DNA from: an uncultured Acidobacteriota bacterium
GTDB lineage: Bacteria > Acidobacteriota > UBA6911 > CAINFC01
DNA: 59,938 bases
Direction: 5' to 3'
Assembly (NCBI GenBank): GCA_903847975.1
Contig: CAINFC010000016.1
Coordinates: forward strand, 1 to 59,938
The notes beneath the pieces were generated by a model. That model saw only the letters and a list, made by a program, of their open reading frames with translations. It searched no databases and was not told the origin of the DNA. The position numbers and the translations under genes are program-made. Below, piece after piece: positions 2,038-24,088 of this stretch; position 1 is the first letter of the stretch, and each line of letters begins with the position of its first letter.

Positions 2038-2043
2038 CCCGGG

Positions 2044-4953: not shown

Positions 4954-4996
4954 TTTTATTCCTTTTATTAAGTGACTATCTTGTCTTGTATGCTTG

Positions 4997-5798: not shown

Positions 5799-5853
5799 GC
5801 TTACAAAACAGGCTGATTCACTGTAAAAAGATGCTAAAATGCTTACAAAACAG
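5799..5853 (+). repeat. 13-bp direct repeat GCTTACAAAACAG
   Basis: Perfect copies lie at 5799-5811 and 5841-5853, at the junction where AT-rich sequence gives way to the hsdR remnant. They could be scars of insertion or excision; nothing else supports a function. Confidence 0.45.
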
Positions 5854-5890
5854 CATAAATGGAAGTATTTCAATCATTACGACCTTGCAT

Positions 5891-6771: not shown

Positions 6772-7119
6772 TGCCGTTGCCTTCCTATGATTTTCTGCAT
6801 GGTTTGCTGAGAATATTCTTCTGAAGGTTCTGCCCTGAAACGGCGCGTGCGGCAAATCGCAATACTTCGGGCAAGGCGCAAAAAGCCCGGAATCGACCCG
6901 TCACCGGCTCTCCAACGAAATCTGCACGGAATACAAGCTTTCGCTGGCGTGCCACAAGCGGAATCCCGCTCGCAGCGCGCCGCCTGAAGGTGGAGCTCCA
7001 TACGACTTTCTTTTGTCAGTCGGACCCCGATCGACTCGTGAGCATACCCATGCCCCCTCGGCTTTTTGTACTTTCCTCAGGGAAGATGACCCGGTAAAAA
7101 GTCCCACATCTTATTTCCG
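6772..7119. other. Intergenic stretch without a supported gene
   Basis: Short frames exist on both strands but none has a plausible ribosome site with recognisable protein sequence. The stretch lies between the ygjP 3' end and a multi-hairpin repeat. Confidence 0.5.
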
Positions 7120-7232
7120 GAATAGCCAAGGGCCAAAGGCCCGGCACATAATAGCCTGGGGTGAAGCGCAGCGCAGCCCCAGGTATGTGGTTCCGATATA
7201 CATGAGGGCTGAAAGCCCGAGACATTAGCCTT
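7120..7232. repeat. Three-hairpin intergenic repeat, copy 1
   Basis: Three hairpins follow each other: GGGCCAAAGGCCC, a central CCTGGGG...CCCCAGG with a GAAGCGCAGCGCAG loop region, and GGGCTGAAAGCCC. The same architecture (small, large, small hairpin with AA or TTC-type loops) recurs at the right end of the window in inverted order. Such elements are abundant between genes in acidobacterial and some planctomycete genomes; their function is unknown to me. Confidence 0.65.
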
Positions 7233-7295: not shown

Positions 7296-8339
7296 TCAAT
7301 CCACCGCGTAGACCTGAATCGGCCGGGTCTTCCCTTTGAACAGCTCGGCGCGCAAGGAGGAGGTCTTTATTTCCGGAGGCAGGGCCTCTTGCGTGAATTT
7401 GTCGATCAGAATTTTCCGATTCACCGCCTTGGTGTGTTCCTCCAGCCGGGCCGCCAGGTTGACGGTGTCCCCCAGACAGGTAAAGAACGCCCGATCGCGG
7501 GTGCCGACATAGCCGGCCACCATTTTGCCGGTGGCGATGCCGATCCCGATCGTGATCGGCGGATAGCCGCTGCCGTCCTCCCGGGCGGTCCGGTTAAACT
7601 CTTCCAGGTCGGCAAGGATCTCCCTTGCGGCCCGGACCGCCTGTTCGGCATGATCGGGCTGGCGAAGAGGGGCGCCGAAAAAAGAAAGCACCCCATCCCC
7701 CTGAATCTGGTTGATCATGCCCCCATGCCGGCCGACGGCAGAGAAAATCAGGGCAAAAAGCCCGTTCAGCAGTTCGATGGTCTCGCGCGGATCGCTCGAT
7801 TCGGCCAGCGTAGTGAAGTTGCGCACATCGCAGAACATGGCGGAAGCCCGAACATGTTCTCCTCCTAGCTCGAATCCTTTGGCCAGCAACTGGTCGGCAA
7901 TTTCATGGGTGGTGAAGGTACCAAACAGCTTTCTCTGCTGGTCCCGCAAGCGCTTTTTTTCCAGGCAGGCATTGACCCGGGCCTGGAGGAGAACCGGATT
8001 GGGAGGCTTGGTCAGGTAGTCCTCCGCTCCCATTTCGATACAGCGGACAACCGAATCCAGCTCTTCTCCGGCCGATACGACCAGGACCGGAATATCCCGG
8101 AGGAGAGGATCCTGCACCATAATTTCCAGGACGGCAAAACCGTCCATTTCAGGCATGATTATGTCGAGCAGGACCAGGTCGAAGGACTCGCGGCGCAACA
8201 GTTCCACGGCCCTGCTTCCGTTTTCCGCAGAAAGAACCTGATGCCCATGGGCCTGCAGGGCTTTCACCAGGAACATGCGGTTCAATGGATTATCCTCCAC
8301 GACCAGAAGGCGGGCGGGAGGACTCGGCGGATTAAACAT
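7296..8339 (-). CDS. Response regulator fused to class III nucleotidyl cyclase
   Basis: The start at 8339 (MFNPPSPPARLLVVEDN) is preferred; an upstream extension to 8408 lacks homology. Residues about 10-125 form a complete receiver: acidic pair VEDN, phospho-acceptor in LVLLDIIMPEMDG, and Lys in YLTKPPN. A coiled linker leads to a class III cyclase domain (about 155-345) with metal Asp residues in MFCDVRNFT and QGDGVLSFFG and the transition-state Asn/Arg in GDTVNLAARLE. The usual adenine-selecting Lys before GDG is Gln (INQIQGDG), so cAMP versus cGMP cannot be called. It is divergent from the chemosensory operon across about 300 bases and is a plausible output for CheA phosphorylation. Confidence 0.88.
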   Translation of the reverse strand: MFNPPSPPARLLVVEDNPLNRMFLVKALQAHGHQVLSAENGSRAVELLRRESFDLVLLDIIMPEMDGFAVLEIMVQDPLLRDIPVLVVSAGEELDSVVRCIEMGAEDYLTKPPNPVLLQARVNACLEKKRLRDQQRKLFGTFTTHEIADQLLAKGFELGGEHVRASAMFCDVRNFTTLAESSDPRETIELLNGLFALIFSAVGRHGGMINQIQGDGVLSFFGAPLRQPDHAEQAVRAAREILADLEEFNRTAREDGSGYPPITIGIGIATGKMVAGYVGTRDRAFFTCLGDTVNLAARLEEHTKAVNRKILIDKFTQEALPPEIKTSSLRAELFKGKTRPIQVYAVD

Positions 8340-8639
8340 GGGCTCACATTGCTTTCCGGTCGCTTTTTGAAGGATGATTAGTGGGAGGGTACAACCACCC
8401 AGGGACACTAAAACGGCACTTGCAGCTCACCTTCAACCAGGGAATATAGCGGTTCACAGGGGTACAGTCAATTGCTTTTTGTCACTTTTTAGCCGGAAAA
8501 AAGGGAGCCCGAAGCACTTCTCCCAGCACAAAGGCTTTCGCTTGTCCATCACATGCGATCCGTGACGCAGATTACAGAAAGTCTTTGCTTCTTCCTTTAT
8601 TTTCATTAATTTATTATTTTTCCGAAGACGGGCGTCATT
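8340..8639. promoter_or_regulatory. Divergent intergenic region between cyclase and chemosensory operon
   Basis: About 300 bases separate the two divergent starts and must hold both promoters. The right part (8580-8635) is T-rich and AT-rich compared with the surroundings. I see no convincing sigma-70, sigma-28 or sigma-54 match. Confidence 0.35.
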
Positions 8640-9197
8640 TTGAAAACCGAACAGGCCATCCAGGATTCTCCCTCCCAAACGATCTGCGTGATCACCTTCC
8701 GCCTCCACCGGCAGGTTTATGCGCTTAGAGTTGAAACCATAAAGAAAATCATCGACATGGTCAAAATCACGCCCGTTCCCCAGCTGCAGGGAGTGATAGA
8801 GGGGGTGATCAACTTTCACGGCACCGCCATCCCGGTCCTCCACCTCGCCCAATATCTTTCTCTGCCGGTGCAGCCGCCGCGGCTGAACACGCCGATTCTG
8901 ATCATGACCATCGCCGAACGAACCATCGGGTTGATCGTTGACGAAATTCTGGATGTAATCCACCTGCCGGCCGGCGAGCTGATTCCTCCCGGCCGCTTTT
9001 TGCCGGATGGGCTCAGCCAGGTACCTTCCCTGCTTGGGTTGCTGCATACACCGCAGGGAACCATTCTTCTGCTGGATCTGAACTGCCTTTTCGTTCCCCA
9101 GCAGATCCGCCTGGTCCAGTCGGCCATCCACTCCTTTTCCAAATCCGGCAGAGAGCTCGAGCTGGAAATTTCCGAAATAGCGGAGACCGGGCCGTGA
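8640..9197 (+). CDS. cheW: CheW-like coupling protein
   Basis: A single CheW domain (residues about 14-165) with the expected strand pattern: ICVITFRLHRQVYALRVETI, VIEGVINFHGTAIPVLHLAQ and IGLIVDEILDVIHLPAGELI. CheW proteins tether the kinase CheA to receptors at the membrane. The start is a TTG at 8640 after a GA-rich stretch; there is no nearby ATG. First gene of a tightly packed operon: its stop overlaps the GTG of cheR. It would correspond to WspB if the locus is Wsp-like. Confidence 0.9.
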   Translation: MKTEQAIQDSPSQTICVITFRLHRQVYALRVETIKKIIDMVKITPVPQLQGVIEGVINFHGTAIPVLHLAQYLSLPVQPPRLNTPILIMTIAERTIGLIVDEILDVIHLPAGELIPPGRFLPDGLSQVPSLLGLLHTPQGTILLLDLNCLFVPQQIRLVQSAIHSFSKSGRELELEISEIAETGP

Positions 9198-10765
9198 GCA
9201 GCCGCTTCTCCCAGGAGCCCCTGCGTGACTGCCAGAGCCATGATCCGCGTCCGCTGCGGCTGGAAGACCGCGACTATCTGCGGTTTCGCCAGCTGCTGCT
9301 GGACCGCTGCGGTCTTTACTTTCCCGAAAACCGGCGCGCCGAACTGGAATACCGCCTGCACCTGGCATTCGCCTCCTCCCCCTGCGCCGGTCTGAATGAA
9401 TTTTATTCCCTGCTGAAAGACGGCGGGTCCGGGGGGGTGGAAATGGACTCGCTGATCAACGCCGTAACCATCAGCGAGACTCATTTTTTTCGCGACACCC
9501 CGCAAATGGATGCGCTCTGCAACGAAGTGCTGCCGGAAATCATTGAGCGCAGGCGGCCGCAGCGCACCCTGCGCATCTGGAGTGCCGGCTGCGCCAGCGG
9601 CGAGGAGCCCTACAGCCTGGTCATGCTTCTGCGGGAATATCTGCCGGACTTTGACCAGTGGTCCATTCTGGTCTTGGGAACCGACATCAGCAGCGCCTCC
9701 CTGAGCCGCGCCCGGAACGCAACCTACGGCTCCTGGGCCTTTCGGGAAGACCGCGCCCTGCAGATGCGCCCGCGGTACTTTCGAAAAAACGGCAACCGCT
9801 ATGAGCTGCAGCCGGAAATCCGGAACCGCGTCTTTCTCAAGCCGCTGAACCTGGTGGACAGCAATTACCCGTCCGTGGAAACCAATACCCACGCCATGGA
9901 TCTGATTCTGTGCCGCAATGTAACCATCTATTTCAGCGAAGCCGTCACCCGCTGGGTGGCCGACCGTTTTTACGATGCCCTGGTGGACGGCGGCTGGCTG
10001 GTAGTCGGGCACTCCGAGCCCTGCCTGGATATATACCGGCGCTTCCAGGTTCGCAATTTTCCCAATACCGTCCTGTACCAGCGGCCCTCCGAAAAAAGCG
10101 GCCTGGCAGAAAGCCCTGCCAGATCTTTTCCCGCGCCTTCGGCCCAGGGAATCCCTCCGATTCCTGTCTCCCCTCCGCGGCCGACTCCCCGGCTGGATAC
10201 CGGCACAGACCTGAAGTGCAACGCGGACAACCTGATCCTGCAGGCCCCGGACGGTTGCGCGGAAAATCCGATGGACCAGATTCAGGAGCTGATCGAATAT
10301 GGCCGCAGCGAGGAAGCCCGGGCCCTGCTGCAGAGGAGGGTCGCGGAGCAGCCGCGCGATTCCCAGGCCTGCTCCCTTCTGGGAAGAGTGTACGCCAATT
10401 TGGGAAACTGGGAAGAAGCCAGCCGCTGGTGCCTTCGCGCTATTGAGCGGAATGCCCTGTCCCTGGATGCCTATTACACGCTGGCCCTCGTTTTCCAGCA
10501 CGAAGCCAGGATCGATAAGGCCATCGAAGCCATGAAGAAGGTGGTATACATCGACCGCAACAGCATCCTGGGCCACTACAGCCTGGCCCATCTTTACCGG
10601 GAAAGCCGGCAACCGGCTCAGGCTCAAAAGTCGCTTTCCAATGCCCTGCGGCTTTTGGCCGGCCGGTCTGAAAACGAGGTTATCGCCGCTTCCAGCGGGA
10701 TTACCATTGGACGTCTGCGGGAAGCGATACTTGGGCAGCAGAAGAACTGGAGCTCCACCGGATGA
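9194..10765 (+). CDS. cheR: CheR methyltransferase with C-terminal TPR repeats
   Basis: Residues about 20-290 are a CheR methyltransferase: N-terminal helical domain, ISETHFFRDTPQMDAL, the SAM-binding IWSAGCASGEEPYSLVMLL, and DLILCRNVTIYFSEAVTRW. It would methylate receptor glutamates using S-adenosylmethionine. A Pro-rich linker (about 300-345) leads to TPR repeats from about 360 to 490 (LIEYGRSEEARALLQR, LLGRVYANLGNWEEASRWCL, YYTLALVFQHEARIDKAIEA). CheR-TPR fusions are typical of Wsp- and Frz-type systems rather than flagellar chemotaxis. The start is GTG at 9194, overlapping the cheW stop. Confidence 0.93.
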   Translation: MSSRFSQEPLRDCQSHDPRPLRLEDRDYLRFRQLLLDRCGLYFPENRRAELEYRLHLAFASSPCAGLNEFYSLLKDGGSGGVEMDSLINAVTISETHFFRDTPQMDALCNEVLPEIIERRRPQRTLRIWSAGCASGEEPYSLVMLLREYLPDFDQWSILVLGTDISSASLSRARNATYGSWAFREDRALQMRPRYFRKNGNRYELQPEIRNRVFLKPLNLVDSNYPSVETNTHAMDLILCRNVTIYFSEAVTRWVADRFYDALVDGGWLVVGHSEPCLDIYRRFQVRNFPNTVLYQRPSEKSGLAESPARSFPAPSAQGIPPIPVSPPRPTPRLDTGTDLKCNADNLILQAPDGCAENPMDQIQELIEYGRSEEARALLQRRVAEQPRDSQACSLLGRVYANLGNWEEASRWCLRAIERNALSLDAYYTLALVFQHEARIDKAIEAMKKVVYIDRNSILGHYSLAHLYRESRQPAQAQKSLSNALRLLAGRSENEVIAASSGITIGRLREAILGQQKNWSSTG

Positions 10766-11490
10766 AAGCATCGGATCCGTTTCTCCAAGACAAACAGAGC
10801 CATCCCGCCCCGGGCCATCCGGCCAAGGATTCTCTTCCCCTGCCGTCCCGGAAAGGAACCGTGGCCCGCCTGAACGAAAGCCTTCGTCGCCACTGGAAGG
10901 AGGAGCTGACTCCCGAGGAGGAAGAGAAGATCCTCGAACAAAGGGCCGCTGAGCTGGCCCGGGAGCGGCAGGAGGAAGAGCCGGGGGAGCAGATCGACCT
11001 GGTCCAAATCCGGCTCGGCAGGGAAATCTATGGGTTGGAAGTCAACTATATCTGCGATATTTACCCCGCCGCACTGATCACCCGCGTGCCGCGAGTTCCC
11101 TCCTGGGTGGCCGGAGTCGCCAATCTGCGCGGAAAGATCCAGTCTGTCGTGCGGCTGCAGGGCTTCCTGAACCTTCCGGAGCCGGAGACGCCCACGGCCA
11201 GTCCGCACCTAGTGGTCGTGGAAATCCCGGCGATGGAGCTGGCGCTGCTGGTGGACGAAGTCCTGGCAGTGGAAGCGATACCGGCAGGGCGGCTGCAGGA
11301 AGCGGCAGGAGCGATACGAGGTATTCCTGCGGAGTATGTTCGCGGAGTTGTCGCGCAGCGGGGAGAGAGAACGGAGAACGGATCGGCGGTTGAGGAAAAA
11401 GCCGAGGAAAGCGCGTCTCTCATGGTGGTTTTAAACGTAGCGGCTTTGCTGGCGGACCAGCGCCTGATCGTTCATGAAGAAGTAGGTTAA
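10762..11490 (+). CDS. cheW: CheW-like protein with charged N-terminal extension
   Basis: 242 residues. The first 75 are a Pro/Arg/Glu-rich, partly helical extension (EELTPEEEEKILEQRAAELA); the rest is a CheW domain with IDLVQIRLGREIYGLEVNYI, WVAGVANLRGKIQSVVRLQG and LALLVDEVLAVEAIPAGRLQ. An ATGA overlap couples it to cheR. The long, charged N-terminus and the position after CheR-TPR match WspD-like proteins, which form a second adaptor in the same array. An acidic insert (about 200-215) interrupts the last strands. Confidence 0.9.
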   Translation: MKASDPFLQDKQSHPAPGHPAKDSLPLPSRKGTVARLNESLRRHWKEELTPEEEEKILEQRAAELARERQEEEPGEQIDLVQIRLGREIYGLEVNYICDIYPAALITRVPRVPSWVAGVANLRGKIQSVVRLQGFLNLPEPETPTASPHLVVVEIPAMELALLVDEVLAVEAIPAGRLQEAAGAIRGIPAEYVRGVVAQRGERTENGSAVEEKAEESASLMVVLNVAALLADQRLIVHEEVG

Positions 11491-11502
11491 CAGGAGGTTC
11501 GG

Positions 11503-13527
11503 ATGAATTCATTCAACAACATCAAGGTGGGCACCAAGCTGATCGGCGGTTATATCCTGATCGCCCTGATCATTCTGGGAGTGGCCCAGATCGGCTACTC
11601 CAGCATGCAGCGGATGAACCGGGCGCTGGACGGCATATACGACGACAACCTGCTGCCGATGCAGGCCCTGGGAGAGCTGGACCGTACCGTGTTCCGCCTG
11701 CGGGGGGACCTGTACAAATTTGTCGGACTTCCCGATGAGCGCTCCGCGACCGCGGAGGAACTCAGCAACGATATCGCCAAGGTCAATGACGCCCTCACCC
11801 GGCTGAACAGCATGAACCTGAGCGCCGATCAAAAGAACAAGCTGGCGGCCATCGCCACCCGCTGGGAGGCTTACCAGAAGGATGTCTTCGACATCAAGGC
11901 CTCGATCCAGGGCGGGCAGGACAAAGAAGGGATCGCCAGCCTTCTGGCCGGCGGCAAAACTTCCCAGGACCGGAACGCCCTGGCCGCCGCGATCGACGCT
12001 CTGAGCCAGACCACCGCAGAAGCCGCCAAGGCAGCCAGCCTGGGGAACGAGGAGCTTTTTTCCTCCTCCACCAACTCTCTTCTGCTGGCCGGAAGCCTCG
12101 GGTTGCTGCTCGCCGTGCTGGCCGGCATTTTCACCTCCCTCAGCATCACCCGACCTCTGAACCGGGGGGTAACCATGATGCAGGAAATGAGGCTGGGGCA
12201 CCTGGGCAGCCGCCTGCGGCTGGACCGCAGGGACGAAGTGGGGCTGCTGGGGCGGGCCATGGACCAGTTCGCGGACGACCTGCAGGACATGGTGATCAAG
12301 ACCATGAAGAAAATTTCCCAGGGCGATCTGAGCTCCGAAATTCAGGCCAAGGACAGTCGGGATGAAATTGCACCCGCCCTGCGTCAAACCACGGAGGCCC
12401 TGCGCGGACTGATGGACGAGGTCACCATGCTCAACCGGGCCGCCGCAGAAGGACGGCTGTCCACCCGCGGCGATGAAGCCCGCTTCCAGGGAGCCTTCCG
12501 GGATATTATCCGCGGGATGAACACCACTCTGGAAGGAGTGGTGGATCCTATCAACGTCGCCGCCAACTACGTGGACCGCATCAGTCGGGGGGAAATTCCC
12601 GAACAGATCACCCAGAGCTACCGGGGGGACTTCGACCTCCTGAAAAACAACCTCAACCGCCTGAGCCGGCGGCTGCGCGACATGCTCGCCTCCATCTCCA
12701 CGAACGCCACCAACCTGAGCTCGGCGGCGGCGGAAATTCTGTCGACCACCACCCACCAGGCTTCCGGCGCCAGCCAGCAGTCGGCGGCCATCTCCGAGAC
12801 GACGGCTACCGTGCAGGAGGTGAGGACCATCTCGGAGCACGCTTCCAGTCAGGCCCAGGAAGTAGCCACCGCCTCGCAGCGCACCGTCGAGGTGGCCCGC
12901 TCCGGGCAGCGCGCGGTGCAGGACACCATCGATAGCATGTCGCAGATCAAGGAGCGGGTGGAAAGCATCGCAGAGAACATTCTGGCCCTTTCCGACCAGA
13001 CCCAGCAGATCGGGGAAATCATTTCTTCGGTCAACGAAATTGCCTCCCGCTCGAATATGCTGGCCCTGAACGCCTCCGTGGAAGCGGCCCGCGCCGGAGA
13101 GCACGGCAAGGGCTTTGCCGTGGTGGCCATGGAGGTGCGCAGCCTCGCCGAACAGTCCAAGCAAGCCACTTCCCAGATCAAGTCCATTCTTTCCGAGATT
13201 CAGAAGGCCACCAACACCACCGTGATGGCCACCGAGGAGGGCACCAAGGGAGTGGAAAAGGGGGTCCAGCTGGCCGCCCAGGCCCGGGAGGCCATCGATG
13301 CCCTGGCCACAGTCATTCACGAATCGGCGCAGATCGCCACCCAGGTCGTCGCCGGAGGGCAGCAGCAGCTGACCGGAATTGAGCAGATCGCCCTGGCCAT
13401 GCAAAACATCAACCAGGTCACGGTGCAAAGCCTGGCCAGCACGCGCCAGGCGGAAAAAGCGGCACAGAACCTGAACGAGCTGGCGCATTCGATGATGGAC
13501 AGCGTGTCCCAGTACCGGTTCAACTAG
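11503..13527 (+). CDS. Methyl-accepting chemoreceptor with multiple HAMP domains
   Basis: 674 residues. TM1 (about 14-34) and TM2 (about 192-212) enclose a four-helix-bundle periplasmic sensor of about 155 residues. After TM2 come a canonical HAMP ([16 protein letters not shown] onward) and further HAMP-like units around residues 265-300 and 305-385. The signalling tip is [20 protein letters not shown], followed by [20 protein letters not shown], the CheA/CheW contact region. No C-terminal CheR-tethering pentapeptide is present. A good ribosome site (AGGAGGTTC) precedes the ATG. In this operon it is the only receptor and so the likely input. Confidence 0.93.
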
Positions 13528-13546
13528 AGGTGCCCGAGGAGGACCC

Positions 13547-16051
13547 ATGTCCATCAGCTCCAAGATCCGCGAGCAGATCATTCAGACCTTTCGAGCCGAA
13601 TTGCTGGAGCACGTCCAGACTCTGAATCACGGGCTGCTGCGGATCGAGCAGAACAAGGTGGCCGGTCCGGAGCGGGAAGAAGTCCTGGCCGACCTGTTTC
13701 GGGCCGCCCATAGCCTGAAGGGCTCCGCCCGGGCTATTGGGGTTAGCGCCGTGGAGCAGCTGGCGCATGCCTTGGAGGATATCCTGGGGCTGATGCGGCT
13801 CCACAGCGTGAATCTGAGCTCCGAGCTGTTCACGGCCTGCTATCAGGCGGCGGACGCGATTCAGACCACCCAGAACGCCTATGAAGCCGGAGAATTGGCC
13901 CCGCCGGTCCAGGCGCTTCTGGCCCTTGCGGAATTGAGCAAATTCCGGAATCCCCCCAAGACGGGAAGCAACGCAAAAGCGGTTCCGAATCCCCTCCTGG
14001 CCCCACCCCCGCCGGCACGCCGCCCCGCGTCTGTTCCTTCAGAGCCGGAACCGTATCCCACAGCCGAAAGGCCAGACAACAGCAGGGAGCAGAAGGCGCC
14101 GGCTCCGGACAGCTCCTCTTTCGCTTCGAAGCCGGAGGAAAAAGCGCTGAAGCCGGCACCGGATTATGGCCCGCCGCCCCGGACCGCCGAAGCCGCCGTG
14201 GCAAGACCTCCCTCCGCCACTCCCTCCGCACCGGAGCCTCCGCCGCCACCCGGGAAAGGCGCAACGGAAGAGACGGTCCGCGTCAGCGTGTCGAAACTGG
14301 ACGCCCTGATGTCCCAGCTCAGCGAACTGCTCAGCGCCAAAATCCGGGCGGAGCAGCGCCTCGCCCAGATGCGCCGCGACCAGGATTATCTGAGCGACTG
14401 GCAAAAAGACTGGATGACGGAGCGGCGGATCCACACCCGCCTGACGCGGCATGGGGCGGCCAAAGGGGGAGGAGCAGGGCCGGTTCCGTTTCTGGCCGAT
14501 TTCCAGCGGCTGCTGAAATATGTAGATTCCAGCCAGCACCGGCTGCGCGAAATGAATCTGCGGATCAGCCAGCTGGTTCGCGAATTCAGCAGCGATGTGA
14601 TGCAGATTTCCCTGATCATCGACCGGCTGGAAGAAGAGATCAAGCGGGTTCGGATGCTCCCTCTTTCCAACAGCACCGGATCTCTGCACCGGATGGTTCG
14701 GGACCTGGCTCTGAACTCCGGCAAGGAAGTGGAACTGGAAATCCGCGGCAGCGAGCTGGAACTGGACAAACTGATACTGGAACAGGTGAAGGATCCCATC
14801 ATTCACCTGCTCCGTAATGCCGTAGACCATGGAATCGAGCCGGCCGCCCAGCGAAGAGCGGCCGGCAAGCCGGCCGTCGGGAAGATCGTTTTGTCCGCCG
14901 CCCATCAGGGCAGCGACATAGCGATTTCTGTCTCCGATGACGGCGCCGGTCTGAACATCGAAGCCCTTCGCCAGGCAGCCGTCCGGCGGGGCCTGCCGAA
15001 CGCCGGGGGGCTGACCGACTTTGAACTGGCCGAGTTGATCTATCACAGCGGCTTCTCCACCAGCCCCATCATCACCGACCTTTCCGGACGAGGAGTGGGC
15101 CTGGATGTCGTCCGGCGAAACATCGAGTACTTACATGGTAGAATCAGCGTGGAATGGAAACCGAGATGCGGTACCTGTTTCACGCTGACGGTCCCCTCCT
15201 CGCTGACCAGTTCCCGCGGGCTGATGGTTTGGGTATCGGGTCAGCTTTTTGCCATACCGCTCCATTCCATCGAGCGGATCAAGCTGATTGCCGCAGAGGA
15301 GATTGAAACGGTCGGAGGGAGCGATACGCTGCCCTATAACGGCCGGCCCCTGCCGCTGGCTCATCTGAGCGATGTTCTGCAGCTTCCACGGCTGGAATCC
15401 GCCCAGGGGAAAAAGATGCTTCCCGTGGTCATTCTGGCTGCCGCGGAGCGCCTGGTGGCCTTTGCGGTAGACGATCTGGCCTATGAGCAGGAGATTGTGA
15501 TCAAGGGGTTGGGCCGGCAGCTGACGCGCGTGGCCGGCATTGCCGGGGCCAGCGTTCTCGGAAACGGAGAAGTAGTTTTGATTCTGCATGCCGCGGATCT
15601 GGTCAAGCTGACCAGCCGGGGAGCGCATGGCTCCGTTCTTGGTCCGAGGGCCGCCGGGGAGCTTCCTCCCGGCAGGGTTTCATCGAAAAAATATATTCTG
15701 GTTGTCGACGATTCGATCACTACCCGCACACTGGAAAAGAGCATCCTGGAGGGGGCCGGTTACAGGGTTCAGGTGGCCATGGACGGCCTGGAGGCCTGGA
15801 ACGCGGTGCGCAGCGGAGAGCTTCCCGACCTGATCGTTTCGGATGTTGCCATGCCCAATCTGGACGGATTCGGATTGACCCAGCGGGTGAAAACAGAGGA
15901 GCGAACCTCGAACATTCCGGTCATCCTGGTAACCTCGCTAGACTCGCAGGAGGATAAAGCGCGGGGAATCGAATGCGGCGCCGATGCCTACATTCTCAAG
16001 GGCCGCTTCGATCAGAACAACCTGCTGGAAACCATTGAGCAGCTCATTTGA
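13547..16051 (+). CDS. cheA: Hybrid CheA histidine kinase with C-terminal receiver
   Basis: 834 residues. Domains: HPt with phosphorylatable His55 in FRAAHSLKGSARAIG; Pro-rich disordered linker (about 140-240); dimerisation helices; HATPase with HLLRNAVDHGIEP and SGRGVGLDVVRRNI; CheW-like regulatory domain (about 545-690); receiver (about 705-834) with VVDDSIT, LIVSDVAMPNLDG and YILKG. All catalytic residues are visible. The fused receiver is usual in WspE/FrzE-type CheA and may act as phosphate sink or regulator. It follows the receptor gene by 19 bases with a GAGGAGGA ribosome site. Confidence 0.94.
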   Translation: MSISSKIREQIIQTFRAELLEHVQTLNHGLLRIEQNKVAGPEREEVLADLFRAAHSLKGSARAIGVSAVEQLAHALEDILGLMRLHSVNLSSELFTACYQAADAIQTTQNAYEAGELAPPVQALLALAELSKFRNPPKTGSNAKAVPNPLLAPPPPARRPASVPSEPEPYPTAERPDNSREQKAPAPDSSSFASKPEEKALKPAPDYGPPPRTAEAAVARPPSATPSAPEPPPPPGKGATEETVRVSVSKLDALMSQLSELLSAKIRAEQRLAQMRRDQDYLSDWQKDWMTERRIHTRLTRHGAAKGGGAGPVPFLADFQRLLKYVDSSQHRLREMNLRISQLVREFSSDVMQISLIIDRLEEEIKRVRMLPLSNSTGSLHRMVRDLALNSGKEVELEIRGSELELDKLILEQVKDPIIHLLRNAVDHGIEPAAQRRAAGKPAVGKIVLSAAHQGSDIAISVSDDGAGLNIEALRQAAVRRGLPNAGGLTDFELAELIYHSGFSTSPIITDLSGRGVGLDVVRRNIEYLHGRISVEWKPRCGTCFTLTVPSSLTSSRGLMVWVSGQLFAIPLHSIERIKLIAAEEIETVGGSDTLPYNGRPLPLAHLSDVLQLPRLESAQGKKMLPVVILAAAERLVAFAVDDLAYEQEIVIKGLGRQLTRVAGIAGASVLGNGEVVLILHAADLVKLTSRGAHGSVLGPRAAGELPPGRVSSKKYILVVDDSITTRTLEKSILEGAGYRVQVAMDGLEAWNAVRSGELPDLIVSDVAMPNLDGFGLTQRVKTEERTSNIPVILVTSLDSQEDKARGIECGADAYILKGRFDQNNLLETIEQLI

Positions 16052-16060
16052 CGAGGAGTT

Positions 16061-16483
16061 ATGCCGACAAGTACGACAAGACTTTCTTCCCGGCCTAAAA
16101 CGGTTCTGATCGTGGAAGACAGTCCGGTTCAGGCCCTGGCGCTTGCTGCCCTGCTGCAATCGAAGGGGCTTCAGGTAATCTCCGCCTCCAACGGGCTGGA
16201 GGGACTGGAAAAAGCTCGCGAGCAGATGCCGGACATCATCCTTCTCGACTTCCAGATGCCGGAAATGGATGGCCTGGAAGCCTGCAAGCATCTGAAGCTG
16301 GATTCCCGTACGACGGCCATTCCGGTCATCCTGCTCACCTCCACCACCCAGGATAATATTTTTACCACCAGCTTCGAGGAGGGAGCGGTGGAGTTCATAC
16401 CCAAGGACGCCTTTTCGAATATGGTTTTACTGGAAACATTGCGACAGCTGAAGATCCTGCCCTTTACCGACGGTGGCTGGTAA
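16061..16483 (+). CDS. Single-domain response regulator
   Basis: 140 residues consisting of one receiver domain. The acidic pocket (VEDS), acceptor Asp in IILLDFQMPEMDG, switch Thr/Ser (ILLTSTTQ) and Lys (EFIPKDAF) are present, so it can be phosphorylated. There is no output domain. It lies 9 bases after cheA and before cheB. It may be a CheY-like messenger or a phosphate relay; in Wsp systems the equivalent slot is a diguanylate cyclase regulator, absent here. Confidence 0.9.
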   Translation: MPTSTTRLSSRPKTVLIVEDSPVQALALAALLQSKGLQVISASNGLEGLEKAREQMPDIILLDFQMPEMDGLEACKHLKLDSRTTAIPVILLTSTTQDNIFTTSFEEGAVEFIPKDAFSNMVLLETLRQLKILPFTDGGW

Positions 16484-16527
16484 GACAGGAAATCCCGGGA
16501 TTCTGCCCACCAGACCAGGCGGCAAGA

Positions 16528-17616
16528 ATGGTAATCAGGAATCACTCTCCCATCCGCATTCTCGTGATCGACGACTCGCCGACCATCCGCGAGTTGTTTA
16601 CCGCACTCTTCCAGGAGGCAGGCGATATCGTTGTCGTCGGTACCGGCGCCACCGGAGAGGATGCAGTGCGTCTGACCAAGCTGCTCAAGCCCGATCTGGT
16701 TTCCATGGATATTCGAATGCCGCTCATGAACGGCCTGGAAGCAACCCGCCGGATCATGTCGGAGTGCCCGGTTCCCATCGTTCTGATCAGTACCGAGGCG
16801 GAAAAAACCCATTTGAACTATGCCTTCCAGGCGCTGCAGGCCGGCGCTTTGACGGTAATCGGCAAGCCCAGCTTGAGCGACCCGGCTTCCGCGGACAAAG
16901 TCATTCAGACCATCCGGGCCATGGCCCGGGTGCCGGTGATCCGCCACTGGAACAGGAAGGAACCGGAAAAAATGGACTGGGGCCTGGCGGGTGGCTCTCC
17001 GAAGGGGTGGGGGGATCTTCCCGATAAAAATCCGATCGCCCAGCGGCTCCGGGAAGCGTCTGTCCTGGGCGTGGCCTCCTCCACGGGCGGACCCGGCGCT
17101 TTAGCTTCTCTTTTTCAAAAACTGCCCTCCGGTTTTCCCCTGCCTGTTCTGGTGGTCCAGCACATTTCTTTTGGATTCACCGCCGGCCTGGTGGACTGGC
17201 TGGGAACCCAGACAAAGTTGAGCGTGGAGATCGCCGCACAGGGCGGCAGATTGAAGCCGGGAACCGTTTTGTTCGCCCCGGACGACTTCCATTTCCAGAT
17301 CGGCGAAAGTCGCCAGGTGGAATTAACCAAAGCGCCGCGCTTCAAGGGATTGCGCCCCAGCGCCAACTATCTGTTCGAATCCCTGGCCCGTCAATTCGGA
17401 TCCCGGGCTGCGGGGATGGTCCTGACCGGCATGGGAGACGACGGAGCCCAGGGTCTGAAGTTGCTCCATCAGGCTGGCGGGCTCACTTTTGCCCAGGATG
17501 AAGCCAGCTCGGTCGTCTTCGGTATGCCTCGCGAAGCGGTCCTCCAGGAAGCCGTAGACCATGTCATGAGCCTGGATCAGCTTTCCTCCCTGCTGGAAAA
17601 AATTCAGCAGCTCTGA
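16528..17616 (+). CDS. cheB: CheB methylesterase response regulator
   Basis: 362 residues. An N-terminal receiver (IRILVIDDSPTIRELF, acceptor in DLVSMDIRMPLMNG, Lys in VIGKPS) is joined by a linker to the methylesterase domain. The catalytic triad is seen in GVASSTGGPGA (Ser), LVVQHISFGFTAG (His) and LTGMGDDGAQGLK (Asp). It would remove methyl groups from the receptor, opposing CheR and giving adaptation. It ends 10 bases before the next kinase gene and is part of the same transcription unit. Confidence 0.94.
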   Translation: MVIRNHSPIRILVIDDSPTIRELFTALFQEAGDIVVVGTGATGEDAVRLTKLLKPDLVSMDIRMPLMNGLEATRRIMSECPVPIVLISTEAEKTHLNYAFQALQAGALTVIGKPSLSDPASADKVIQTIRAMARVPVIRHWNRKEPEKMDWGLAGGSPKGWGDLPDKNPIAQRLREASVLGVASSTGGPGALASLFQKLPSGFPLPVLVVQHISFGFTAGLVDWLGTQTKLSVEIAAQGGRLKPGTVLFAPDDFHFQIGESRQVELTKAPRFKGLRPSANYLFESLARQFGSRAAGMVLTGMGDDGAQGLKLLHQAGGLTFAQDEASSVVFGMPREAVLQEAVDHVMSLDQLSSLLEKIQQL

Positions 17617-17626
17617 ATCACGGCCC

Positions 17627-20599
17627 ATGAGCCCGCAAACGAAATTGTCCCCCATCCGATTGCCTCTGCAGGCCACTCTGGTTTCCCTGGTATTGTTTCT
17701 GGCGACACGAAGCATTTTTCTTTCCTTTGAAAGGCACCTGGCCGGATGGGTCGGTTTCTGGGTTGGAGGAATGCCGGTTATCCTCTTCCTGGCTCTCCTG
17801 TACAGCCGACAGAAAAAGGAAGCTTTATACCGCGACCACGATTATTCCCTGACAGGGATATTGAAGGTCCACCACAGCGGGAAAATCGCATACGCCAACC
17901 GGTCGGCGGCCCAGATCGTCGACCTGGGCGCGCCGGAGGATCTGGTAAAGAGCAATTGGAAATCGTACCTTCTCCGGGCCGATTCGCTGCAGGAATGGAT
18001 CGGCAAGCTGGCGTCGGAAGGAGAAATCCGCGCCCAGGAAATGGAAATCCGGACCGCCCGGGGGCGGGTGCGGAATGTGCTCTGCTCCGCCTTCCCGACG
18101 CAGGGAATGATAAACCTGAACCTGGTGGACATCACCGATCGGATCCAGATGGGCGTCGAGTTCCGCAAGCTCTCCCGGATCGTGGCCCAAATGCCGGATA
18201 TGGTGGTGATCACCGATATCGACGGTCGAATCGAGTATGTCAATCCCGCCTTCGAGCAGATGACCGGGTACAGCCGGGAAGAGGCCCTCGGGCAGACGCC
18301 AAGAATCCTTAAATCCGGCGTGCATCCGCAGGAATTCTATGCCAAGTTATGGGATACCATCCGGGCCGGCGGTGTTTTCCGGGAGGAAATTACCAACCGG
18401 AAAAAAACCGGCGAGCTTTACTACCAGACCCAGACCATCACCCCCATCCGCAACGCGCAGCGAAAAATCACCAATTTCGTGGTTACCGGCAAGGATAACA
18501 CGGTGGGCAAGCTTGCCATGGGAATGCTCCAGAAGAGCCAGGCGAACCTGGAAATGGCTCAGTCGATCGCCCGGCTGGGAAGCTGGGAAATCGATTACGC
18601 AAACAACAGCAGGTACTGGTCCAGGGAAATGATCCGCCTTTTTCACCTGGAGCCGGATGTCGATCCTCCCGGGCCTTCCGAGTTCCTGAAACTGGTGCAT
18701 GCAGACGACCGCCGGCTGGTCTCGGAAAGCTACCAGCATGCCGTCGAATCGGGCCGGCTCACCACCGTGGAATACCGGGCCAATCCATCCGGTGCCGAGT
18801 GGCAGGACTTTCAGGCCACCTTCCAGGCAGCCAGGGATTCCCTGGGAAACCTGCAGAGCGTCTCCGGAACCGTATTGAACATCACCGATATCAAAACCGC
18901 GCAGCGCAAGCTGGAGGCCCTGAATTCCGAACTGGAAAAACGGGTGGAAGAGCGCACAGCGGAAGTGCGCCAGAATGAAGCCGTCTTTCAGGTGCTGTTC
19001 GAAAACTCCAACGACGGCATCTTTTTGATTTCGCCCCGGGGGCAGGTGCTGCGGGCCAACCGCCGGGCGCACGATCTCCTGCGCCGTCCCGCGGAGGAAG
19101 CACGGGGCGCCGAAGCGGGGCACAAGCGCGGGGAGAGCCTTCCGGAACTTCTGCGGGACGTGGATGCCATGCTGCAGGCGGTCTCCCGCGGCGAGCCGGT
19201 CCCCAGCTACGAGCGATCGTTTCTTCACCCGGACGGAAGGCGGATTGCGGTGGAAATCAGCCTTTCCGCGGTCCGAAACGCTCCGGGGGACATCCACCTG
19301 GTTCAAAGCGTGGTGCGCGATATTACCGAGAGGAAAAAAGCCGAAGAGATCCTGCGGGAAAGCCACGACCGGCTTCATGCCGCCAATCTGGCCCTGGAAA
19401 AGGCTTCGAAGCTGAAAGATGAATTTCTGGCCAGCATGAGTCATGAGCTCCGAACGCCGCTGACCAGCATTCTGGGCATCGCCGAATCCCTGGAGATGCA
19501 GGTCCATGGCCCCCTGAACGAGAAGCAGTTTCAATCGCTGAAGGCCATCGAAACCAGCGGGTGGCACCTGCTGGACCTGATAAATGATATTCTTGACCTG
19601 TCCAAAATCGAGGCCGGCAAGCTGGAACTGCACACCGAAGAGGTCGAGATCGAGGAAGTCTGCCTGGCAAGCCAGCAGCTGGTCAAAGGGATGGCCCGGC
19701 AGAAAAAGCAGAATATCCAATTCGAAATGCAGCCGGAATCGATCTCCATGGTTGTGGATGCGCGCCGATTGAAGCAGATGCTGGTCAACCTGCTCGGCAA
19801 CGCAGTCAATTTTACCCCGGAAGGGGGTGCCGTCGGATTGCAGGTACGGGGCGACCCGGAAGGCTGCGCGGTTCATTTTACGGTCTGGGATAAAGGAATC
19901 GGCATCCAGCTGGAAAAGATCGGCGAGCTGTTCAAGCCTTTTGTGCAGCTGGACAGCAGCTTGTCCAGGCAGTACTCCGGCACGGGCCTGGGGCTGTCGC
20001 TGGTGCGGCGGATGGCGGAGCTGCACGGGGGGAGCATCCAGGTGGAAAGCGCCCCGGGCCAGGGAAGCCGGTTTACCATCCTTTTGCCCTGGCTGCCGCC
20101 GGGAGCGACCGGCGCACCGGATCTCAAGCCACGACGAAGTCCGGCTTCTTCGCGCAGCGCCGTCCTGCCGGCGGAAAGGAACAAGGAAGCTGGTATAAAA
20201 CCTCTATTGCTGGTCACGGATGACAACGAGCAGATCCTGGCCATGCTGTCCGATTTTCTGGAAGCCAACAACTACCGGGTCGTCACCGCCCGCAGCGGAT
20301 ACGAACTGCTGATCCGCGCCCCCGAGCTGCGCCCCGACGTGATCCTGGTCGACGTGCAGATGCCGGGCATGGACGGACTGGAGGCGATTCGTCGCCTGCG
20401 GGCCCAGCCCGATTCCGGCGTGGCCGCCACACCGATGATCGCCGTAACGGCTCAGGCGATGCCCGAAGACCGCGAGAACTGCTACCTTGCCGGAGCCAAT
20501 GACTACTTGAGCAAACCGGTGCATCTGAATGCACTCCTGGAGACCATCGGCCTTCAGCTTCGGCCGGCTAGGCCGCCTGAGGTCGCACCCAACCCTTAA
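17627..20599 (+). CDS. Membrane hybrid histidine kinase with multiple PAS domains
   Basis: 990 residues. Two N-terminal transmembrane helices (about 12-32 and 38-60) with almost no periplasmic loop, then about four PAS domains (about 70-165, 180-300, 305-430, 455-570; the second reads MVVITDIDGRIEYVNPAFEQ), a coiled coil, HisKA with FLASMSHELRTPLTSILGI, HATPase with NLLGNAVNFTPEGG and GTGLGLSLV, and a C-terminal receiver (LVTDDNEQ, ILVDVQMPGMDG, YLSKPV). All catalytic residues are intact. It senses something in the cytoplasm or membrane through PAS domains. Its place after cheB suggests cross-talk with the chemosensory array, perhaps through the free response regulator. Confidence 0.92.
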   Translation: MSPQTKLSPIRLPLQATLVSLVLFLATRSIFLSFERHLAGWVGFWVGGMPVILFLALLYSRQKKEALYRDHDYSLTGILKVHHSGKIAYANRSAAQIVDLGAPEDLVKSNWKSYLLRADSLQEWIGKLASEGEIRAQEMEIRTARGRVRNVLCSAFPTQGMINLNLVDITDRIQMGVEFRKLSRIVAQMPDMVVITDIDGRIEYVNPAFEQMTGYSREEALGQTPRILKSGVHPQEFYAKLWDTIRAGGVFREEITNRKKTGELYYQTQTITPIRNAQRKITNFVVTGKDNTVGKLAMGMLQKSQANLEMAQSIARLGSWEIDYANNSRYWSREMIRLFHLEPDVDPPGPSEFLKLVHADDRRLVSESYQHAVESGRLTTVEYRANPSGAEWQDFQATFQAARDSLGNLQSVSGTVLNITDIKTAQRKLEALNSELEKRVEERTAEVRQNEAVFQVLFENSNDGIFLISPRGQVLRANRRAHDLLRRPAEEARGAEAGHKRGESLPELLRDVDAMLQAVSRGEPVPSYERSFLHPDGRRIAVEISLSAVRNAPGDIHLVQSVVRDITERKKAEEILRESHDRLHAANLALEKASKLKDEFLASMSHELRTPLTSILGIAESLEMQVHGPLNEKQFQSLKAIETSGWHLLDLINDILDLSKIEAGKLELHTEEVEIEEVCLASQQLVKGMARQKKQNIQFEMQPESISMVVDARRLKQMLVNLLGNAVNFTPEGGAVGLQVRGDPEGCAVHFTVWDKGIGIQLEKIGELFKPFVQLDSSLSRQYSGTGLGLSLVRRMAELHGGSIQVESAPGQGSRFTILLPWLPPGATGAPDLKPRRSPASSRSAVLPAERNKEAGIKPLLLVTDDNEQILAMLSDFLEANNYRVVTARSGYELLIRAPELRPDVILVDVQMPGMDGLEAIRRLRAQPDSGVAATPMIAVTAQAMPEDRENCYLAGANDYLSKPVHLNALLETIGLQLRPARPPEVAPNP

Positions 20600-20639
20600 C
20601 CGTTCCAACCATCTTCAACCTTACACTCCCCCTATTTCT

Positions 20640-22958
20640 ATGGATCAAACTCCGAAGATTGATGTCGTCATCGTGGATGACAATCCGATTCAAAGCCGCA
20701 TCCTGTCGCGCCTGCTGACCCGGGAGGGGTATGGCGTCCGCGCCTTTCGGGGCGCCAAAGAAGCCCTGGACACCATGGAGAGGAGCTGTCCGCCGGACCT
20801 GGTCATCACCGATGTCTACATGCCGGTGATTGACGGGTGGCGTTTCTGCCTGATGCTGCGCTCCAAGGAGTATGATGCCTTCAACCAGGTACCCATCCTG
20901 GTGATCTCTTCCATTTTTGCAGGAGAGGAGGCCTACCGGGTTACCTCCGACCTCGGCGCCAACGCTTTTCTGGCCTCGCCGGTCGATCCCAGGCTGTTTC
21001 TGGAGCAGGTCCGGAGGCTGTTGAGCAACCGCCAGGAAAAGACTTTTTTTCAGGTGCTGATCGTCGAAGACGACCTGACCCAGGCGCTCTACCTGCGATA
21101 CTCCCTGGAAGGCATGGGCTATCAGGTGGACACCGCGGAGAATGCCGGCGAGGCAGCCGGTCTCTTCACCAGGAAGCACTATGACCTGGTGCTGCTCGAT
21201 TACCACCTGACCGACCGGGACGGCGACCAGCTGCTGGTCGAATTTCAAAAAAGAAGGCCGGACTGCATTTACATCATGATGACCGCGGATCCGCGCACCG
21301 ACTTGTCCATGGAATGGCTGCGCAGCGGGGCCACCGCTTGCGTTTCCAAGCCCATCCATCCGAACGACCTGCTGGACCTGTGCACCCGCAGCCGCCGGGA
21401 CCGGGCCCTGGTGCGGATGGAAAACCTGCTGGGAGAGCGGTTCCGCAGGCTGCAGATGACCGAGGAGCGGTACCGTACTTTTTTCGACCAGGGCCCGGAC
21501 GGCATCCTGGTTCTGGATCCGGATACCGGCGGCTTTATCGAATTCAACGATCAGGCCTGCCGCCAGCTGGGCTATTCGCGGAAAGAGTTTGCCGGATTGC
21601 TTTTGCAGGACATTGAAACGCAGACCTCCGCCGAGGAGAGAGACGGGAGAATCGGGCGCGTGACCCACGGCCATCGAGTGGACTTCGACACGCTGCACCG
21701 CACCCAGGATGGGGAAATCAGGAATGTGAACGTTACGGAGCAGATCATCGACCTCGGCGACCGGCCCATCTATCAGTGCATCTGGCGAGACATCACCCAG
21801 CGGGTGCGCACGGAAGAAGCTCTTCGCCATTCGCAAAAAGTGGAAGCGGTCGGCCGGCTGGCCTCCGGAATCGCCCACGACATGAACAACCTCCTGGTCC
21901 CCATTCTCGCTTACGGGGAAACCCTGCTGGACGAGTTTCCCGCTCAGGACTCACGCCGGCAGGCGCTGGAGGAAATCATTCACGCGGGATTTTGCGCCCG
22001 GGACCTGGTCCGTCAGCTGCTGGCCTTCGGCCGCAAGCAGGCACTGGAATATCAGCCGGTCAACATCAACGAAGCCCTGTCGGGGTTCGAAAAACTGCTG
22101 CGCCGGACCATCCGGGAGGACATTGAGCTGAGCATCGTTCTGCGCCCCTTGACGGGAAGCGTCTGGGCCGATATCGGCCAGATCGAGCAGGTCATAATGA
22201 ACCTGGCCATCAATGCCCAGGATGCCATGCCGGCCGGAGGGCGGCTGCTTTTCGAAACGGACATGGCAGAAATTTCCGAAAGGAACCGGGAACAGGTAAG
22301 GGGAGTCGAGCCGGGATCCTATGTGAGAATGACCATCAGCGATACCGGAAACGGAATGAGCAAAGAAATCCAGGAGCATATTTTCGAACCCTTCTTTTCC
22401 ACCAAGGGACTGCAGGGAAGCGGCCTGGGGCTTGCCACAGTGCAAGGGATCGTCCAGCAGCATAACGGCCAGATCTTCGTGCAAAGCAGTCCCGGCAAAG
22501 GCACCACGTTCCAGATTTTCCTCCCCGTTCGGGAGGCGGCCAGGACGGAGAAACAGGAGGAGGCCCCGGAAGAGAAGACCCTGCAGGGCTCCGGAACGAT
22601 TTTCCTGGTGGAAGACAGCGACCAGGTTCGGTTTCTGACCCAAACCATACTTCGCCGTTTCGGATACACCGTGCATTCCGCGCGGAATGGGAGCGAAGCG
22701 CTCCAAGGCATGCAGGCGCTGGCCGGGTCGGTGGACCTCCTTCTGACCGACGTGATCATGCCGGAAATGAACGGGCTCCAGCTGGCGCAGCAGATCCGGG
22801 AATCCCAGGTCGGAACGAAAGTCCTGTATATGACAGGCTACAGCGATGAAATGCTGGCCCGGGCGGGCGTGCCTTTCCAGGACATCCCCTTAATCCATAA
22901 GCCCTTTACGGCCCATACGCTGGCGGAAAAAATAAAAACTGTTCTGTCCGCCGGCTAG
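20640..22958 (+). CDS. Soluble hybrid kinase: two receivers, PAS, kinase, third receiver
   Basis: 772 residues from the ATG at 20640; the open frame begins earlier, inside the previous gene. Order: receiver 1 (VIVDDNPIQ, LVITDVYMPVIDG; the usual Lys lies in a SPVD sequence, so it may be atypical), receiver 2 (IVEDDLTQ, LVLLDYHLTDRDG, CVSKPIH), PAS (about 290-390), HisKA with SGIAHDMNNLLVPILAYGE, HATPase with NLAINAQDAMPAGG and GSGLGLATV, receiver 3 (LVEDSDQ, LLLTDVIMPEMNG, IHKPFT). No membrane segment. The HxxN-type HisKA with a terminal receiver is a common soluble hybrid design. It converges with the next gene, stop codons overlapping. Confidence 0.92.
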   Translation: MDQTPKIDVVIVDDNPIQSRILSRLLTREGYGVRAFRGAKEALDTMERSCPPDLVITDVYMPVIDGWRFCLMLRSKEYDAFNQVPILVISSIFAGEEAYRVTSDLGANAFLASPVDPRLFLEQVRRLLSNRQEKTFFQVLIVEDDLTQALYLRYSLEGMGYQVDTAENAGEAAGLFTRKHYDLVLLDYHLTDRDGDQLLVEFQKRRPDCIYIMMTADPRTDLSMEWLRSGATACVSKPIHPNDLLDLCTRSRRDRALVRMENLLGERFRRLQMTEERYRTFFDQGPDGILVLDPDTGGFIEFNDQACRQLGYSRKEFAGLLLQDIETQTSAEERDGRIGRVTHGHRVDFDTLHRTQDGEIRNVNVTEQIIDLGDRPIYQCIWRDITQRVRTEEALRHSQKVEAVGRLASGIAHDMNNLLVPILAYGETLLDEFPAQDSRRQALEEIIHAGFCARDLVRQLLAFGRKQALEYQPVNINEALSGFEKLLRRTIREDIELSIVLRPLTGSVWADIGQIEQVIMNLAINAQDAMPAGGRLLFETDMAEISERNREQVRGVEPGSYVRMTISDTGNGMSKEIQEHIFEPFFSTKGLQGSGLGLATVQGIVQQHNGQIFVQSSPGKGTTFQIFLPVREAARTEKQEEAPEEKTLQGSGTIFLVEDSDQVRFLTQTILRRFGYTVHSARNGSEALQGMQALAGSVDLLLTDVIMPEMNGLQLAQQIRESQVGTKVLYMTGYSDEMLARAGVPFQDIPLIHKPFTAHTLAEKIKTVLSAG

Positions 22959-24088
22959 TTCCCCGGCGGCAACCGCCGGAGAACCATGCGGATTTCCATG
23001 CCGGTGTCCGTGCTGCACAGCTGAACCGTGCCCTTCATGGCACGAATTACATAGGCGGCCAGCGGAATCGCCAGGCCCAGATCCTGGACGTAGGAGCCGC
23101 AGCGGTCCGCGGAAAAAGTGTCAAAAAAGGTGCGCTGCAGTTTTTCCGGTATGGGCATCCCCAGAAAGCCGATGTGCAGGACGGTTTCCGCCTCCTCCTC
23201 GCGGAACGCCACAGTTACCGAACTCCCCCGGGAGGCCATTCGCAGAGCGGTCTTGAAGAGAGTGCTCACGCTCTGGCGCAGGAGTTCCTCCTTGGCGGAC
23301 ACCATGCCCGGCTTGGCCTCCGGCAGGACCAGGACGACACCCCGGTCGGAAAAAGCTTCCTGCAGGGCGTCGCAGGTTTCCACGACGATTTTCCCGAGAG
23401 GCACGGGACCGGTATCGATGGGGGAATCTCCCGACTGGAGCTTGGCCAGGAGCAGCGCACCGTCGACCGCCATGAGCAACCGGGTCCGGGATCGAACGTA
23501 CATTTCCGTATAGCGCTTGCGCTGTTCTTCCTCCAGGGTACCCAGGGCCAGTTCCGTAATCCCCAGAACGCCGCACATCGGGGTATGCAATTCGTGGGAG
23601 ATGGCGTACAGGTAGTCCCGCTGCGCCTCATCCAGCGCTTTCAGCCGCTGATGGGCTTCGGCCAGCTCATGGGTTCTCTGCTGGACCAGAAACTCCAGTT
23701 CCTCCTGGTGTTTTTTCAACTCCAGATGATTCCGCACCCGGGCCTTGACGATGACCGGGTTAAAGGGCTTGGTAATGTAGTCGACCGCTCCCAGCTCAAG
23801 GCCCCGGGACTCATTGGCGACCTCATTCAGCGCGGTCAGAAACAGAACCGGGATATCGCGCGTGGCGGGATCCTCCTTCAGACGGCGGCACACTTCAAAG
23901 CCGTCCATGCCCGGCATCATGACGTCCAGAAGGATCAGATCGGGAAGGTCCCTTTTGGCGCTTTCCAGCGCCGAAGGTCCGTCCGTGGCAACGTGCAGCG
24001 TGTATTCTTCACCCAGCACCTTGAGGAGAATAGCAATACTGATGCTGGAATCCTCGGCAATCAGCAGACTTCGTTTCCTCTCGTTCAT
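22955..24088 (-). CDS. Receiver-histidine kinase with degenerate ATP-binding domain
   Basis: 377 residues. The receiver (about 6-125) is intact: IAEDSSIS, LILLDVMMPGMDG, YITKPFN. A coiled coil leads to a HisKA-like domain with YLYAISHELHTPMCGVLGI, so the His is retained. The C-terminal HATPase fold has lost its ATP ligands: the N-box is SVSTLFKTALRMA without Asn, the DxGxG motif is FLGMPIP, and the last Gly box is QDLGLAIPLA. It is therefore probably a pseudokinase that acts as a phosphorylation-controlled partner. It converges on the kinase gene at 20640-22958. Confidence 0.85.
   Translation of the reverse strand: MNERKRSLLIAEDSSISIAILLKVLGEEYTLHVATDGPSALESAKRDLPDLILLDVMMPGMDGFEVCRRLKEDPATRDIPVLFLTALNEVANESRGLELGAVDYITKPFNPVIVKARVRNHLELKKHQEELEFLVQQRTHELAEAHQRLKALDEAQRDYLYAISHELHTPMCGVLGITELALGTLEEEQRKRYTEMYVRSRTRLLMAVDGALLLAKLQSGDSPIDTGPVPLGKIVVETCDALQEAFSDRGVVLVLPEAKPGMVSAKEELLRQSVSTLFKTALRMASRGSSVTVAFREEEAETVLHIGFLGMPIPEKLQRTFFDTFSADRCGSYVQDLGLAIPLAAYVIRAMKGTVQLCSTDTGMEIRMVLRRLPPGN

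Follow-up and report, generated by a model that had tools for sequence, protein, structure and literature searches.

The window, which here means the whole 59,938-nucleotide stretch from contig CAINFC010000016.1 (positions 1 to 59,938) of an uncultured Acidobacteriota bacterium (assembly GCA_903847975.1), carries a chemosensory gene cluster and, diverging from it, a gene for a receiver fused to a class III nucleotide cyclase domain (REC-CHD). Its CheA with a C-terminal receiver (CheA-REC), its CheR with TPR repeats (CheR-TPR), two CheW, a 40H receptor and the position of CheA in our trees assign the array to the alternative cellular functions (ACF) class. We propose that this array, probably an old acquisition from a Chloroflexota-like lineage, has a CheA that would phosphorylate several receivers, with the cyclase as an extra output, and we put the probability of this reading at roughly 0.42. 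The cyclase is a plausible output of the array; the second hybrid kinase (hk2) and the single receiver are better supported and better conserved outputs, to which the cyclase would be an added one. The locus comprises the following features (HK stands for histidine kinase; L, G and C numbers designate loci, genomes and contigs of the comparison set).

7296-8408, minus strand: REC-CHD, the receiver-class III nucleotide cyclase (Pfam Response_reg 3.1e-27, Guanylate_cyc 5.2e-19)
8409-8639: divergent intergenic region between cyclase and operon, with possible shared control
8640-9197, plus strand: CheW in the WspB position (Pfam CheW 2.6e-25; best match Chloroflexota L197, 43%)
9194-10765, plus strand: CheR with C-terminal TPR repeats, WspC-like (Pfam CheR 1.9e-47 and TPR; 51-53% with Chloroflexota CheR-TPR)
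10762-11490, plus strand: CheW with a charged N-terminal extension of ~75 residues, WspD-like (Pfam CheW 2.3e-25 at 80-232; 41-50% with Chloroflexota)
11503-13527, plus strand: receptor 4HB_MCP-HAMP-HAMP_2-MCPsignal (Pfam; signalling domain 65-68% with Chloroflexota)
13547-16051, plus strand: CheA with P1 (Hpt, His55), P3-P5 and C-terminal REC (Pfam Hpt, HATPase_c, CheW, Response_reg; trees)
16061-16483, plus strand: stand-alone receiver, a single REC (Pfam; 53-59% with same-position receivers of L110, L107, L114 and L115)
16528-17616, plus strand: CheB, REC-methylesterase (Pfam CheB_methylest 5.5e-57)
17627-20599, plus strand: hk1, PAS-HK-REC hybrid kinase (Pfam; HK-REC kinases also follow cheB in L106, L109, L114 and L115)
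20640-22958, plus strand: hk2, REC-REC-PAS-HK-REC hybrid kinase with an architecture like Rhodospirillum centenum CheS3 (Pfam)
22955-24088, minus strand: REC-HK, convergent, overlapping the end of hk2 by 4 bp (Pfam)

The plus-strand genes from 8640 to 22958 overlap or are separated by at most ~44 bp, and therefore likely form a single operon. Every gene named in the preliminary description of this DNA, from the first cheW to the two hybrid kinases and the divergent receiver-cyclase, is present with strong Pfam matches (NCBIfam contributed generic receiver and CheA models only); the convergent REC-HK gene was missing from its list. It had also described an array without its own diguanylate cyclase, and a domain scan indeed found no GGDEF gene in the operon or in the window; the genome as a whole has 15 GGDEF domains (those listed, on other contigs) and four class III cyclase domains. 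In none of the nine receivers is the acidic pair or the phospho-acceptor (Asp57 of CheY) lost, and the equivalent of Lys109 is replaced, by Ser, only in the first receiver of hk2. The maximal open reading frame of the cyclase encodes 370 aa with an alternative ATG start near 8339, leaving a stretch of ~230-310 bp before the operon. This region contains a weak sigma-70-like match on the minus strand (8471-8443), and three promoter-like sites were found where 1.2 are expected, which is not strong evidence.

A 2012 survey (PMC3447774) takes CheR-TPR together with multidomain response regulators in the cluster as the mark of ACF systems, and the operon has both. For the tree of the CheA core, anchors were taken from public records: E. 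coli CheA (L251, F7), a ChpA-like CheA (L253), Azospirillum ACF clusters (L255, L256) and, for Wsp, a Cupriavidus cluster (L254) with the order MCP-CheW-CheR-CheW-CheA-CheB-REC-GGDEF. In this tree, in which the F7, type IV pilus (Tfp) and Wsp classes are represented by single anchors and the rows for Wsp and ChpA-like CheA sit on long branches, the window falls with the ACF rows, apart from the F7, Wsp and ChpA-like anchors and from the CheA on contig C53 of its own genome. This is the outcome of the CheA check suggested in the preliminary description: CheA lies in the ACF part and not in the flagellar F class, and the receptor, with 140 residues past the hairpin tip or 20 heptads, is of the 40H class (136-140 residues in Chloroflexota counterparts). 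The term ‘Wsp-like’ used there is right for gene content but not for CheA, which belongs to a Chloroflexota ACF group outside which the Cupriavidus Wsp CheA, the WspE anchor, is placed (long branch, moderate support); moreover, the cluster lacks a REC-GGDEF output such as WspR. The genome has a second ACF cluster (L041, G000:C6:58000-77900), at whose end (14122-14883) a receiver is joined to a C-terminal part of unrecognised type that contains two CxxC motifs.

The closest relatives of the array are found outside the phylum of its host. In 40 related genomes, of which none shares more than the class with that of the window, CheA identity reaches at most 41%; of 396 genomes from the phylum, 19 have CheA relatives at E <= 1e-150, and every one that was retrieved falls into ACF groups other than that of the window. 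The best eleven CheA matches in named genomes are all from Chloroflexota (Anaerolineae, Thermoflexales), and whole-protein identity with the nine that were aligned is 46-60%; a class-wide search of Chloroflexota covered 200 genomes. The gene order cheW-cheR_TPR-cheW-mcp-cheA_REC-receiver-cheB is matched in Chloroflexota where contigs extend far enough. Maximum-likelihood trees nest the window CheA in the Chloroflexota clade (100/100 with 12 rows, 99/94 with 7 rows), and in the core tree it is sister to L110, then L107 (96/92, 99/97). An approximately unbiased (AU) test constraining the Chloroflexota CheA rows together without the window gave p 0.06, not quite a rejection, so that the direction of transfer is our inference. 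Contamination or misbinning as the source of this affinity was rejected by the tetranucleotide profile: correlation with the other contigs of the genome is r 0.989 for the rest of the window and 0.948 for the operon, against 0.76-0.78 for Chloroflexota. The contig thus belongs to its genome and the composition of the operon has adapted to it; the neighbours of CheA in its tree would point to an acidobacterium. Since composition is native while CheA nests in Chloroflexota, the simplest reading is that the array was probably acquired in the distant past from a Chloroflexota-like donor. Positions 1-7200 of the window have a lower GC content (0.485) and a poorer tetranucleotide fit to the genome than the remainder, and include a short tyrosine-recombinase-like open reading frame (5167-5553); this is probably a mobile island.

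The cyclase active-site residues are D, D, Q, T, N and R. Both metal-binding Asp and the transition-state Asn and Arg of class III enzymes are kept, and the base-selecting pair is Gln/Thr, with Gln in place of Lys, as also in L193 and L194. Adenylate cyclase specificity goes with a base-selecting pair of Lys and Asp/Thr. Guanylate cyclase specificity goes with Glu and Cys (PMC2576301), and the window cyclase has neither pair. As three of its four nearest orthologues also have Gln, this residue appears to be a subfamily trait and not decay; the literature search gave nothing usable on the specificity of Gln-type cyclases, and the choice between ATP and GTP (cAMP or cGMP) is not readable from the sequence. 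An AlphaFold model from a 3-row alignment was poor (mean predicted local distance difference test score, pLDDT, 57) and was not used.

These orthologues (L198, L199, L200 and L201; 52-58% identity, support 96/93) come from three genomes, G397 with two copies, G400 and G402, all of which also carry the array; the nearest CheA and cyclase orthologues co-occur in G397 and G400. Their neighbourhoods appear to be those of phosphorelays. In L199 a GAF-rich HK-REC-REC kinase is followed by an Hpt protein (Pfam 1.4e-16) and the cyclase; in L200 the order is HK-REC-REC kinase, short Hpt-like open reading frame and cyclase; L198 has an Hpt open reading frame, the cyclase and a GAF-like protein; and L201 a kinase, a receiver and the cyclase. 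A free Hpt gene thus lies beside the cyclase in three of the four. In the genome of the window, all 22 Hpt domains found lie within open frames of at least 278 aa, no free Hpt of ~110 aa was recognised there or near the locus, and CheA, with its P1 domain, has the sole Hpt of the locus.

We suggest the following scheme as a working model. Phosphate from CheA would pass to its own receiver, acting as a sink, to CheB, to the stand-alone receiver, whose position is conserved in Chloroflexota clusters, and to the N-terminal receivers of hk2, with the receiver-cyclase as an additional target. Because the cyclase family in Chloroflexota adjoins hybrid kinases and usually a free Hpt, its receiver was probably built to accept phosphate from an Hpt, and P1 of CheA could have replaced the free one. 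Phosphorylation would then activate the dimeric cyclase and so increase the level of a cyclic nucleotide; for CyaC, activation by phosphotransfer is announced in the title of Kasahara and Ohmori 1999, as it stands in the reference list of PMC1183210. The specific proposal of a captured phosphorelay cyclase, in which P1 stands in for a lost free Hpt, the array drives the cyclase directly and a single ACF subtype has seen such capture two or more times, is more tentative, and we hold it as possible but doubtful.

The distribution of receiver-cyclases bears on this question. The Chloroflexota-type clusters number 12, window included, of which only four extend at least 4 kb on both sides of cheA, and they were compared with 101 other ACF clusters. 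Three of the 12 (window, L109 and L111) have a REC-CHD no more than 10 kb from cheA on its contig; a fourth (L197), in the genome of L113 but on a different contig, is flanked by cheR-TPR and cheW2, which makes 4/12 against 0/101. Fisher's test, calculated for 4/12 against 0/100, gives p 8e-5, a rough value given that the clusters are related and many contigs cut. The reverse holds for REC-GGDEF (0/12 against 24/101); in the phylum of the window, such proteins occur in several ACF clusters (L222, L229, L231), up to four of them in L222. The embedded cyclases are co-directional with the array genes; in L109 and L197 they lie between cheR-TPR and cheW2, and the one of L111 follows cheB. The 11 Chloroflexota genomes have about 13 full-length REC-CHDs, and by a hand estimate (che neighbourhood of ~35 kb in ~5 Mb) ~0.09 would be expected in a che cluster where three are seen.

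This linkage is not one of orthologues. The window cyclase is a member of the Hpt-linked subfamily, whereas L109, L111 and L197 have cyclases of a different one; grouping the che-linked cyclases in one clade is rejected (AU p 7e-8). The preliminary description had proposed a survey of this linkage and named its lack of conservation in relatives as a refuting outcome, and the answer is split: a conserved orthologous linkage must be abandoned, as the four orthologues are not che-linked and the che-linked cyclases are not one clade, but non-orthologous receiver-cyclases do accompany three related clusters. Belonging to different subfamilies, the cyclases came to this array subtype on at least two occasions, and the recurrent pairing supports a functional link in general.

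Several points weigh against the cyclase being an output of this array. Independent recruitment removes the argument of orthologous conservation for the window cyclase itself; the complete Chloroflexota clusters L107 and L114 have no REC-CHD; the gene is divergent and outside the operon; its four nearest orthologues adjoin hybrid kinases and not che genes. In R. centenum, moreover, CheY3 is not a phosphorylation target of CheA3 (PMC3868531), and proximity is accordingly no proof of transfer. Alternatively, the cyclase may be an independent response regulator, still served by its ancestral phosphorelay through an unlinked hybrid kinase with an Hpt, its location being accidental or a matter of shared transcription control. 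The kinases and free Hpt genes beside the orthologues, the opposite strand of the gene and the ~20 other Hpt domains in multidomain proteins of the genome all speak for such an arrangement. Yet in all its 8.13 Mb the genome has only four class III cyclase domains, of which one divergently adjoins the sole array of this type, receiver-cyclases lie inside the same array subtype in three more genomes, and array and cyclase have the same closest genomes; we take this account seriously, while judging it doubtful.

A less probable alternative, which we rate as unlikely, places the real output in hk2, with the stand-alone receiver: CheA would tune the hk2 kinase by phosphorylating its N-terminal receivers, on the pattern of CheA3 and CheS3 in R. 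centenum, and any effect on the cyclase would come via hk1 or hk2. The gene lies within the operon, its best matches are REC-HK-REC kinases following cheB in ordinary ACF clusters (L230, L233, L223, L225), a REC-HK kinase occurs in 55 of the 101 other ACF clusters, and CheS3 has a REC-REC-PAS-HK design (PMC3868531). However, hk2 has an extra C-terminal receiver, a HisKA and not an HWE kinase core, and a first receiver devoid of the conserved Lys, and the recurrent REC-CHD would be left unexplained. An output through hk2 is compatible with our explanation of CheA driving several receivers. On the minus strand further along the window, a hybrid kinase (38267-40774) adjoins an HDOD-like protein (40783-41673).

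Finally, that the single receiver acts on the motor in a flagellar chemotaxis system, as flagellin and fliD 7-9 kb downstream (flagellar genes 29710-32218) and FliM in the genome might suggest, was already disfavoured and is highly improbable: CheA stands well apart from its E. coli F7 counterpart, C53 and C103 carry other che loci of the genome, and the array is not primarily flagellar, because nine of the 11 Chloroflexota genomes carrying it have no FliM. Maf-like, FliD and flagellin genes occupy 27010-32218, a few kb from the array, with FliM of this genome on a different contig.

Known ACF arrays act mainly on cyclic di-GMP (Wsp), on transcription or through hybrid kinases. If our proposal is true, an ACF subtype repeatedly paired with receiver-cyclases would extend this list by cyclic mononucleotides as a direct output, and the Hpt-linked orthologues offer, by comparison, a clean test of CheA taking over a phosphorelay receiver. 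This would not be the new chemosensory output type that the preliminary description had envisaged, since receiver-mononucleotidyl cyclases are already listed among the response regulators of cheR-TPR clusters in the 2012 survey (PMC3447774) and, in P. aeruginosa, cAMP is under the control of Pil-Chp by way of CyaB (PMC12632253). A limited literature search found no direct test of whether an ACF array acts on a receiver-cyclase.

Among known systems, the Anaerolineae ACF clusters of Chloroflexota (for example L107, L109, L110, L114) are the closest, with the gene order and CheA identity given above. Unlike the window, they often have a second receiver and a second CheB as well as partner-switch genes between cheR and cheW2, and the embedded cyclases of L109, L111 and L197 differ from that of the window in their Lys/Asp base-selecting pair. 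In L109 (2596-7445) and L114 (3960-6037), cheR-TPR and cheW2 are separated by genes for STAS, small HATPase-like and SpoIIE-type phosphatase proteins, which would suit an array coupled to a partner-switching module. Wsp (WspA-F, WspR) shares the 40H receptor, two CheW, CheR-TPR, CheA-REC and CheB, whereas the window has no REC-GGDEF, a receptor that is not first, an extra stand-alone receiver and hybrid kinases, and a CheA that groups elsewhere. Cyanobacterial CyaC also has a class III cyclase domain under receiver control, but it carries its own kinase within the same polypeptide, whereas the receiver-cyclase of the window is separate from any kinase. Pseudomonas aeruginosa Pil-Chp is likewise a chemosensory array controlling a class III cyclase and cAMP (PMC12632253); it is of the Tfp class, and CyaB, which is activated via PilG, is no receiver-cyclase belonging to the gene cluster. 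The Che3 cluster of R. centenum (PMC3868531) resembles the window in CheA-REC, MCP, two CheW, CheR, CheB, a single CheY and a hybrid kinase with two N-terminal receivers and PAS, a design that hk2 follows with three REC, PAS, HisKA and HATPase; the C-terminal receiver and HisKA core set hk2 apart, and the R. centenum cluster has no cyclase gene. There, CheA3 phosphorylates REC1 of CheS3, which then phosphorylates CheY3, and cGMP acts in the same developmental programme as Che3 (PMC3868531). R. centenum, for which the connection of Che3 to cGMP signalling is posed as a question (PMC3868531), thus provides an experimental system for the same problem.

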